A stretch of 64,000 nt of DNA from positions 1 through 64,000 of the forward strand of contig NZ_JAKZLF010000016.1 of assembly GCF_022808855.1 (NCBI RefSeq), read 5' to 3'. The notes beneath the pieces are model-generated. The model was not told the DNA's origin and ran no database searches. It was given only the letters and a program-made list of their open reading frames with translations. Shown here in pieces: positions 52,064-55,565 of this stretch; position 1 is the first letter of the stretch, and every line of letters starts with the position of its first letter. This DNA comes from Anaeromyxobacter soli. GTDB lineage: Bacteria > Myxococcota > Myxococcia > Myxococcales > Anaeromyxobacteraceae. Both the position numbers and the translations under genes were made by a program.

Positions 52064-52807
52064 TCAGCGGATCCGCAGCAGCGTGCGGACCGTCGCGATG
52101 ATGTCGGCGAACTGGACCGGCTTCTGGAGGTACACGTCGATGCCGAGCTCGGCGGCGCGGTCGCGCGCGTCGGGCCCGCCGGCGCTGATGATGACGATGG
52201 GCGTCCCGGCCAGCGCCGGATCGGCCCGCATCCGCTCGACGAGCGTGAAGCCGTCCATGACCGGCATGTACAGGTCCGCCATGACGAGGTCGACGCGGGG
52301 CGGCTCGACGAGCCGGGCCAGCGCCTCGTGGCCGTTCGGCGCGTACTCGACGGCGACGTCCACGCCGTCCCCCTCCGAGCGGAGCTTCCGGAGGGCGTAC
52401 TGGTACATCTCGACCACCCGCGCGTTGTCCTCGACCACCAGCACGCGGTAGGTGCGCTTCGCCTTGCCGCTGCCGGTGCGGGCGGTCTCGGCGATGCGCG
52501 CGAGCTTGTGCCGGTCGTCCACCCGGTCGATGGGGATCTTGACCGCGACCCCCCGCGGCTGGTCCTTGGCGGCGGCGCGCGTGCGCACGACCTCCACCTC
52601 GACCTCCACGGGCTCGAGCAGCCCGGGGAAGCTCACCTGCAGCGGGACGCGATCGCCCTCGCGCAGGGACCGATCCGTGCGTATGAAGAGCCCGCCGGCC
52701 GACACGTTCTCCGTGACGTCCCGGACGGCCTGCTGCATGCCTGGATAATCCACACGGAGCACGAGCGGGACGCGGGGATCGCGACGCTTTTCTCGACCGA
52801 TTTCCAT
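52064..52807 (-). CDS. PilZ-receiver signalling protein
   Basis: A 247-residue protein with an N-terminal PilZ domain (1-110) and a C-terminal receiver (about 120-245). The PilZ domain has R-x3-R in KRRDPRVPL and ENVSAGG, again Asn in place of the usual Asp of D-x-S-x-x-G. The receiver has the phosphorylation Asp in LVMADLYMPVMDG and Lys in LQKPVQF. It could bind c-di-GMP and be phosphorylated, coupling both signals, but it lacks a DNA-binding or enzymatic output. Transcribed divergently from nuoE from a promoter that shares its -35 region; TATACT ends 12 bases before the ATG and there is no Shine-Dalgarno. Confidence 0.88.
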   Translation of the reverse strand: MEIGREKRRDPRVPLVLRVDYPGMQQAVRDVTENVSAGGLFIRTDRSLREGDRVPLQVSFPGLLEPVEVEVEVVRTRAAAKDQPRGVAVKIPIDRVDDRHKLARIAETARTGSGKAKRTYRVLVVEDNARVVEMYQYALRKLRSEGDGVDVAVEYAPNGHEALARLVEPPRVDLVMADLYMPVMDGFTLVERMRADPALAGTPIVIISAGGPDARDRAAELGIDVYLQKPVQFADIIATVRTLLRIR

Positions 52808-52819
52808 CCGGAGCGGTCG

Positions 52820-52847
52820 AGTATACAGCGGCGGATCTCCTTGACAA
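52820..52847 (-). promoter_or_regulatory. promoter of the PilZ-receiver gene
   Basis: Minus strand: TTGTCA (52847-52842), 16-base spacer, TATACT (52825-52820). The -35 hexamer overlaps the nuoE -35 on the opposite strand. Confidence 0.6.
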
Positions 52848-52869
52848 TCTTACATGTGCTCACTAGCCT
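52841..52869 (+). promoter_or_regulatory. promoter of the nuoEFJK genes
   Basis: Perfect -35 TTGACA at 52841-52846, 17-base spacer, and TAGCCT at 52864-52869. Start of transcription would be near 52876, leaving a leader of about 30 bases before the nuoE ATG. Confidence 0.75.
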
Positions 52870-52905
52870 CGCCCGCGCTTTACGCCCTGCCTTCATCGGA
52901 CCTCT

Positions 52906-53421
52906 ATGACGAATCCACCACTCGTCGGGACGGCCGAAGAACTGCCGCGGGAAAAGGTCGAGCACTTCGACCGTGAGCTCGCGGAGGTCCTTCGTCGCTA
53001 CCCGCCCGATCGAAAGGCCGCGGCGATGCTGCCGGCCCTCCGCCTCGGCCAGGAAGTCTTCGGCTACCTCTCCCCCGCGGTTCAGCGGCTCGCCGCCGAC
53101 CGGCTCGGCACCTCGCCGGCGCGCGCGGAGGAGGTGGCCACGTTCTACGTGATGTTCCACACCGCGCCGATCGGCCGCCACCTCGTGGAGGTGTGCACGA
53201 ACGTCTCGTGCTGCCTCACCGGCGGCGACCGGCTGTTCGAGTACCTCAAGCACAAGCTCGGGGTCGCGAACGGCGGCACCTCGTCGGACGGGCGCTTCAC
53301 GCTGCGCGAGGTCGAGTGCCTCGGCGCCTGCGGCACCGCCCCGGCGATGCTCGTGGACGAGGAGATGCACGAGCGGCTCGACCCGAAGAAGGTCGAGGAG
53401 ATCCTGGGGAGGCTCGAGTGA
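52906..53421 (+). CDS. nuoE: NADH dehydrogenase I subunit E
   Basis: 24-kDa subunit of the peripheral arm of complex I, carrying a 2Fe-2S cluster. The 171-residue protein has VSC-type ligands CTNVSC (C-x4-C) and CLGAC (C-x3-C), and the fold markers ATFYVMFHTAPIGRH and GTAPAMLVDEE. Length is normal for NuoE. It is first in nuoEFJK; the stop overlaps the GTG of nuoF (GTGA). Confidence 0.95.
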   Translation: MTNPPLVGTAEELPREKVEHFDRELAEVLRRYPPDRKAAAMLPALRLGQEVFGYLSPAVQRLAADRLGTSPARAEEVATFYVMFHTAPIGRHLVEVCTNVSCCLTGGDRLFEYLKHKLGVANGGTSSDGRFTLREVECLGACGTAPAMLVDEEMHERLDPKKVEEILGRLE

Positions 53422-54743
53422 GCGAGACGCTCATCCTGACGAAGCGCTGGGGGAAGCCCGACTCCGCCGCGCTGCGCACCTACCGCGCGGACGGCGGCTA
53501 CGCCGCGCTCGACAAGGCGCTCGGCATGGAGCCCGCCGCCGTCGTCGACGAGGTGAAGAAGTCGAACCTCCGCGGCCGCGGCGGCGCCGGCTTCGCGACC
53601 GGGCTCAAGTGGACGTTCCTCCCGAAGGACGTCCGTCCCCGTTACCTCACGGTGAACGCGGACGAGTCCGAGCCGGGCACGTTCAAGGACCGCTACATCA
53701 TCGAGCACGATCCCCACATGCTGATCGAGGGGATCGCCATCACCTGCTACGCGCTCGACATCCACGCCGCCTACGTCTACATCCGCGGCGAGTTCGCGAA
53801 GCAGGCGCGCATCCTCGAGGCGGCGGTCGAGGAGGCGCGCGCGGCCGGCATCCTCGGCTCGCGGCTCCTCGGCAAGAAGGACTTCGACCTCGAGATCGTC
53901 GTGCACCGCGGCGCGGGCGCGTACATCTGCGGCGAGGAGTCGGCCCTGCTCGAGTCGCTCGAGGGCAAGAAGGGCTACCCCCGCCTCAAGCCCCCGTTCC
54001 CGGCGATCGTCGGCCTGTGGGGCAAGCCCACCATCATCAACAACGTCGAGACCATCGCGAACGTCCCCTGGATCGTCGCGAACGGCGGCGACGCGTTCGC
54101 CGCGCTCGGCGTGGGCAAGTCGGGCGGCACCCGGCTCTTCGGCGTCTCCGGCCACGTGAACCGGCCGGGCGTCTTCGAGAAGCCGGTCGCCTACAACCTG
54201 AAGAAGCTCATCATGGAGGACTGCGGCGGGGTCGTCGGCGGCCGGAAGATCAAGGCCGTCATCCCCGGCGGCTCCTCCTCCCCGGTGCTGCGCGGCGACG
54301 AGATCGACATCTCGCTCGAGTTCGACGCGGTGAAGGCGGCCGGCTCGATGTCCGGCTCCGGCGGCGTCATCGTGTTCGACGACTCGACCTGCATGGTCCG
54401 CGCGCTCGCCCGCATCTCCAAGTTCTACGCGGAGGAGAGCTGCGGGCAGTGCACCCCCTGCCGCGAGGGCACCTCGTGGATGGAGGGCATCGTCGAGAAG
54501 ATCGAGCACGGCCACGCCACCGCCGAGGACGTCGCCAAGCTCGAGCAGGTGGCGGGCAACATCGGCGGGCAGACCATCTGCGCGCTCGGTGACGCCGCCT
54601 CGATGCCGGTGCAGTCGTTCGTGAAGAAGTTCCGCGACGAGTTCCTGCGCCACGTCGAGGAGCGGCGCTGCCCGTACGGCGACCACGGCTGGGGTCTCGA
54701 TCAGTCCTCTCGCCCGGCGGTGGTGGGCGGGGTGAGGTACTAG
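53418..54743 (+). CDS. nuoF: NADH dehydrogenase I subunit F
   Basis: 51-kDa flavoprotein that binds NADH and FMN and one 4Fe-4S cluster. The 441-residue protein has the FMN/NADH glycine motif GRGGAGFATGLKW, the NADH segment ICGEESALLESLEGK, and the cluster ligands CGQCTPC plus a later Cys in TICALGD. IINNVETIANVP and GVSGHVNRPGVFE are also typical. Starts with GTG overlapping the end of nuoE. Confidence 0.96.
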   Translation: MSETLILTKRWGKPDSAALRTYRADGGYAALDKALGMEPAAVVDEVKKSNLRGRGGAGFATGLKWTFLPKDVRPRYLTVNADESEPGTFKDRYIIEHDPHMLIEGIAITCYALDIHAAYVYIRGEFAKQARILEAAVEEARAAGILGSRLLGKKDFDLEIVVHRGAGAYICGEESALLESLEGKKGYPRLKPPFPAIVGLWGKPTIINNVETIANVPWIVANGGDAFAALGVGKSGGTRLFGVSGHVNRPGVFEKPVAYNLKKLIMEDCGGVVGGRKIKAVIPGGSSSPVLRGDEIDISLEFDAVKAAGSMSGSGGVIVFDDSTCMVRALARISKFYAEESCGQCTPCREGTSWMEGIVEKIEHGHATAEDVAKLEQVAGNIGGQTICALGDAASMPVQSFVKKFRDEFLRHVEERRCPYGDHGWGLDQSSRPAVVGGVRY

Positions 54744-54746
54744 GCG

Positions 54747-55259
54747 ATGCAAATCACGGCCGAGCTCGTCTGCTTCTGGATCTTCGCCATCCCCCTCGTC
54801 GTCACCGCGCTCGGCGTGGTGGTCGCGCGGAGCCCGGTGTACGCGGCGATGAACCTCGTCGCGGCCTTCTTCTTCATGGCCGGGCTCTACGTCCTCCTCG
54901 CCGCGCACCTCATCGCGTTCATGCAGATCCTGGTGTACGCGGGCGCGGTGATGGTGCTCTTCCTGTTCGTCATCATGCTCCTGTCGCTCGACGAGGAGCA
55001 CCCGCAGCGCGAGCGCCGCAGGGCGATGCAGTACGTGGGCGTGCTCGGCGCGGTCTCGCTCCTCGCCGTGCTCGCCTCCGCCATCGCCCGCGTGCCCGAC
55101 GCGGCCATGTCGACGCTCGCCCAGCCGGACCGCTTCGGCACGGTGAAGGCGGTCGGGCAGGTGCTCTACACCGAGTTCCTGCTGCCCTTCGAGGTGACGA
55201 GCCTCTTGCTCCTCGTCGCCATCGTCGGTGCGGTCGTCGTCGCGAAGGAGAGGATCTGA
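54747..55259 (+). CDS. nuoJ: NADH dehydrogenase I subunit J
   Basis: Membrane subunit of complex I with about five helices in 170 residues. FFFMAGLYVLLAAHLIAFMQILVYAGAVMVLFLFVIMLL is the conserved helix pair with the pi-bulge region, and LLPFEVTSLLLLVAIVGAVVVAK is the last helix. It begins three bases after nuoF, with nuoG, nuoH and nuoI missing between them. Confidence 0.95.
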   Translation: MQITAELVCFWIFAIPLVVTALGVVVARSPVYAAMNLVAAFFFMAGLYVLLAAHLIAFMQILVYAGAVMVLFLFVIMLLSLDEEHPQRERRRAMQYVGVLGAVSLLAVLASAIARVPDAAMSTLAQPDRFGTVKAVGQVLYTEFLLPFEVTSLLLLVAIVGAVVVAKERI

Positions 55260-55262
55260 GCC

Positions 55263-55565
55263 ATGGTCCCCGTCACCTGGTACCTCTGGCTCGCCGCGGT
55301 CCTCTTCACCATCGGCCTCTCCGGCGTCCTCCTGAAGCGCAACGCGCTCATCGTGATGATGAGCGTCGAGCTGATGCTCAACGCGGCGAACCTCACGTTC
55401 CTCGCGTTCGCGCGGCAGTCGGGGAACATCGGCGGGCACGCCATCGCCTTCTTCGTCATCGCGGTCGCGGCGGCGGAGGCGGCGGTCGGGCTCGCGGTGG
55501 TCATCGCCATCTACCGCACCCGCGGCAGCGTGAACGTGGACGAGGTCCGCGCGCTGCGCGAGTGA
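55263..55565 (+). CDS. nuoK: NADH dehydrogenase I subunit K
   Basis: Small (100-residue) antiporter-like subunit of complex I with three helices. FTIGLSGVLLKRNALIVMMSVELMLNAANLTFLAFAR is the diagnostic stretch, with the buried Glu in SVELMLNA. It follows nuoJ by three bases and ends the cluster; nuoL, nuoM and nuoN are not here. Confidence 0.95.
   Translation: MVPVTWYLWLAAVLFTIGLSGVLLKRNALIVMMSVELMLNAANLTFLAFARQSGNIGGHAIAFFVIAVAAAEAAVGLAVVIAIYRTRGSVNVDEVRALRE

Follow-up and report, generated by a model that had tools for sequence, protein, structure and literature searches.

A TTGACAA element as the putative shared -35 of divergent promoters for nuoEFJK and a pixA-like gene in Anaeromyxobacter soli and related bacteria

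Genes flanking the divergent intergenic region

The window, which is the whole stretch of 64,000 nucleotides analyzed from Anaeromyxobacter soli, contains an intergenic region from which two gene sets are read in opposite directions. On the plus strand, nuoE (52906..53421) encodes the 2Fe-2S thioredoxin-like subunit of complex I (Pfam PF01257, 2Fe-2S_thioredx, E 3.9e-50). It is directly followed by nuoF (53418..54743, start approximate), a reading frame named from its sequence and position, and then by nuoJ (54747..55259; Pfam PF00499, Oxidored_q3, E 5.9e-41) and nuoK (55263..55565; Pfam PF00420, Oxidored_q2, E 2.4e-29). On the minus strand lies a gene for a protein of 247 aa (52064..52807), composed of a PilZ domain (PF07238) followed by a receiver domain (PF00072, Response_reg). 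The RxxxR and NxSxxG motifs and the phospho-acceptor Asp are all conserved in this protein.

An N-terminal PilZ domain and a C-terminal receiver domain are also the parts of Myxococcus xanthus PixA (MXAN_1087), a c-di-GMP-binding response regulator which affects motility and reversal frequency (PMC8316039). In the homologue from a Myxococcus-group genome with divergent nuoE, R9 is situated in the RxxxR motif and the phospho-acceptor Asp is found at position 180. As R9 and D180 are the residues named for M. xanthus PixA, there is a strong but not final sequence-based case that the PilZ-receiver gene is the counterpart of pixA, for which a function is known from M. xanthus alone. The papers searched do not mention that the promoters of pixA and nuo overlap.

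Two predicted promoters on one -35 element

Direct reading of the bases placed both -35 hexamers inside a single 7-mer, TTGACAA (52841..52847), which reads TTGACA on the plus strand and TTGTCA on the minus strand, with spacers of 17 and 16 bp respectively, confirming this part of the preliminary description. The plus-strand TTGACA (52841-52846) precedes the 17-bp spacer (52847-52863) and TAGCCT (52864..52869), the putative -10 box of nuoE, which is situated 36 bp before the nuoE ATG (52906, +). On the basis of this -10 position, transcription of nuoE is predicted to start at 52875..52878. The minus-strand TTGTCA (52847-52842) is separated by a 16-bp spacer from TATACT (52825-52820), which lies 12 bp before the ATG of the PilZ-receiver gene (52807, -). 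The start predicted from this -10 box, at 52811..52814 on the minus strand, would leave a 5' leader of about 4-7 nt. The two -10 boxes are 38 bp apart and the predicted starts about 63 bp apart.

A consensus promoter scan over 4 kb found the minus-strand promoter as its sole match (1 observed against 0.1 expected), and the scan of a Myxococcus-group locus picked the same minus promoter. An extended -10 (TGn) was looked for by eye at the minus promoter and none was seen. The nuo -10 box TAGCCT was missed by the scan because it agrees with the consensus at only three of six positions; its assignment as a probable -10 is backed by comparison with relatives.

To judge the chance expectation, exact TTGACA sites were counted across 464 kb of the genome (74% G+C), comprising the window and 400 kb of other stretches (G000, L205-L224). 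Only 11 sites were found and seven of them possess TANNNN at 16-18 bp; this rarity, together with the frequent TANNNN at promoter spacing, makes the hexamer a good promoter flag in this genome. One of the 11, the site between nuoE and the PilZ-receiver gene, has a divergent TANNNT in addition to TANNNN. At 74% G+C, TANNNT is expected by chance at any of the three spacings in about 0.6% of sites, and a -10 with five of six matches in about 0.05%. The overlap of the nuoE and PilZ-receiver promoters is not a chance arrangement.

Conservation of the hexamers across the order

The divergent order of nuoE and the PilZ-receiver gene is kept in the Anaeromyxobacter, Myxococcus/Pyxidicoccus, Corallococcus and Archangium groups; two other families of the order have it as well. 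For comparison, the loci were oriented and then anchored on the nuo -35. TTGACA with TAGC(C/G/T)T at 17 or 18 bp was found in every Anaeromyxobacteraceae genome for which the upstream region could be read, with or without the PilZ-receiver gene. In the Myxococcus group, the nuo side showed TTGACAAC, with TACGTA or TACGAA about 18 bp away.

On the minus strand, TANNNT stands 16-18 bp from the shared -35 in 67 of the 80 genomes that have the divergent gene (13 of 20 genera), and in none of the 16 genomes and none of the six genera without an intact divergent gene. A Fisher test of minus box against gene presence at genus level gave p = 0.015, the genera not being phylogenetically independent. 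The box has the form TATACT at 16 bp in six of eight Anaeromyxobacter, and TATACT, TACACT or TAGACT at 17 bp in genera g7, g9, g23, g26, g27, g29, g31, g39 and g41. At 18 bp, it appears as TATAGT in g32 and as TAACAT in g8 and g21.

In the nine-genus anchored alignment TTGACAA is invariant, and the main invariant blocks are this element and CAGTNTA, the complement of which (TANACTG) corresponds to the minus -10. In four diverged genera (g7, g31, g39 and g26), the mean pairwise identity is 100% in TTGACAA and 86% in the minus -10, and falls to 44% in each of the two spacers and to 31% in the sequence past the minus -10. The comparison shows that both predicted hexamer pairs are conserved beyond background, with exceptions, and that occurrence of the putative minus -10 follows that of the divergent gene.

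The position of the start codons differs between the families. In Myxococcaceae (L033, L053, L107 and L111), the nuoE ATG is situated 9-10 nt past the -10, and hence the nuoE mRNA would have little or no leader. In Anaeromyxobacter, the almost leaderless mRNA would instead be that of the PilZ-receiver gene (12 nt from -10 to ATG). A stretch of about 40 nt from the pixA-side -10 to the ATG (CCATCAGCAAATTGCCGAGCGATTTCAA..CCTTGTTATG; L053:1443-1485 and equivalents) is very strongly conserved in Myxococcaceae, being present in the Myxococcus, Corallococcus and Archangium groups. It is apparently non-coding and is possibly a leader element or an operator.

Altered minus boxes and loss of the divergent gene

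Not all genomes with the divergent gene possess the minus box in its usual form. Within Anaeromyxobacter, the two genomes G006 and G004 carry the gene and show either TTTACT at 17 bp or no recognizable minus box, and the PilZ start is much more distant in both. The sister genus g3 has TATACT or TATATT at a spacing of 19, with ATGTCA in one member. In g16, g25, g35, g37, g42 and g44 the box is absent. These altered, respaced or absent boxes indicate that the shared -35, though widespread, is not obligatory. The preliminary description expected close relatives to keep both hexamer pairs. This held for the nuo hexamers, which persist in the Anaeromyxobacteraceae examined, and it failed for the minus -10 in two of the eight congeners which keep the gene order.

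Loss of the neighbor was observed as well. In G022 (locus L013), only a remnant of the PilZ-receiver gene is left, in which residues 1-48 and 216-246 are joined by a large internal deletion; TATCGC replaces the minus TATACT beside an intact nuo promoter. An intact neighbor gene is missing from four of six Anaeromyxobacteraceae genera, which still keep the nuo promoter; those without the gene retain TTGACA-17-TAGC.T. The seventh A of TTGACAA, which supplies the first T of the minus -35, was considered as evidence for a minus -35 and rejected. It is present in 11 of 12 Anaeromyxobacteraceae genomes without any trace of the gene at the site, so conservation of this base is by itself no proof that the minus -35 is used.

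Probable overlapping divergent promoters and rival readings

On both strands, -35 and -10 hexamers are situated at 16-18 bp from each other, and the two pairs overlap at the -35. The locus is probably best explained as a conserved pair of overlapping, divergent housekeeping (sigma-70-type) promoters on one -35, with weak mutual influence by default. TTGACAA would present the consensus TTGACA toward nuoEFJK and TTGTCA, with five of six matches, toward the pixA-like gene, so that sigma region 4 could dock in either orientation, and the direction would be set by each -10. The 7-mer differs from its reverse complement, TTGTCAA, at the central base alone. Owing to this near-palindromic nature, any such promoter offers a five-of-six -35 to the opposite strand, and a properly spaced -10 is all that a divergent promoter then requires. 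In the retained sites A occupies the central position, which gives the consensus -35 to the nuo side; the nuo side would thus have the advantage at the -35 and the pixA side at the -10, where its match is better. Judged from the footprint size, polymerase binding to the two promoters is expected to be mutually exclusive. The view of the preliminary description that RNA polymerase cannot occupy both at once is upheld to this extent, as simultaneous occupancy appears sterically implausible when the predicted starts are separated by about 63 bp. With promoters of ordinary strength, the two genes would be expressed with little effect on each other.

A simpler reading, in which the nuo promoter is the sole genuine one, the minus TATACT matches by chance and transcription of the PilZ-receiver gene begins at another place, draws on the facts that TTGTCA comes free with any TTGACAA, that both starts are here predicted from sequence and that several genera have the gene without the minus -10. 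It is made very unlikely by the low chance expectation (about 0.05-0.6% per site), by a minus box which stays at fixed spacing while its surroundings diverge, and by the absence of this box in all 16 genomes without an intact neighbor gene. Still less probable is the idea that TTGACAA with its flank serves, instead or in addition, as an operator through which a transcription factor acts on the two genes. Myxococcaceae do conserve GGGTTTATG beside the -35 and much of the region; this flank does not extend to g7, g31, g39 or Anaeromyxobacter, which have mainly retained the hexamers, and hexamer identity is what sigma-70 predicts.

The preliminary description had gone further and proposed that competition for the single site couples complex I expression inversely to the c-di-GMP protein. 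Steric exclusion does follow from the geometry, an overlap conserved over several families would fit a useful coupling, and competition or repression does arise at E. coli bidirectional promoters, though only with strong activation of one side (PMC12825309). However, of five basal bidirectional promoters put to the test in E. coli, none was strong enough for RNA polymerases to compete (PMC12825309), and M. xanthus pixA is reported to be expressed constitutively during growth and development (PMC8844925). The nuo promoter without an intact neighbor in four of six Anaeromyxobacteraceae genera and the altered pixA-side -10 in two congeners also speak against it. A regulatory switch with inverse output of complex I and the PilZ-receiver protein is hence unlikely, and the proposed coupling found no support. 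Owing to the weak competition in E. coli and the constitutive pixA, weak mutual influence was taken as the default for the overlapping pair; strong inverse regulation is conceivable but not the default expectation. A paper on M. xanthus development, consulted for nuo expression, contained no values that bear on the inverse prediction. A Cappable-seq dataset of M. xanthus has been published (E-MTAB-11042).

Relation to known systems and significance

Overlapping divergent promoters are already known as a kind. In the E. coli bidirectional promoters of Warman et al. 2026 (PMC12825309), one short element likewise serves both orientations with exclusive binding. Those promoters share the -10, with starts commonly 10, 18 or 23 bp apart, whereas here the -35 is shared and the predicted starts are about 63 bp apart; the nuoE/PilZ-receiver pair is therefore not a bidirectional promoter in the sense of Warman et al. 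The Pr/Pc pair of pLS20 (PMC4207663) also consists of two divergent sigma-70-type promoters overlapping over core elements. For that pair, an exchange of -10 and -35 between the strands has been proposed, and the regulator Rco together with DNA looping makes the switch, while the present pair is not known to have a regulator. An earlier report of a shared -35 with such deep conservation was not found among the open-access papers covered, most subscription journals lying outside the search.

The central base of TTGACAA gives the consensus to only one strand, which amounts to a built-in setting of direction, and the retained sites favor nuo. Bidirectional promoters with a common -10 have by now been well described. 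Persistence of a shared -35 over several bacterial families provides a clear natural setting in which to ask if selection maintains such overlaps or only tolerates them, and the lineages which lost the neighbor gene serve as natural controls. It is conceivable, though doubtful, that the shared -35 is kept by selection, in which case competition might link electron-transport capacity to a c-di-GMP-binding polarity regulator, or might buffer the expression noise of both genes.
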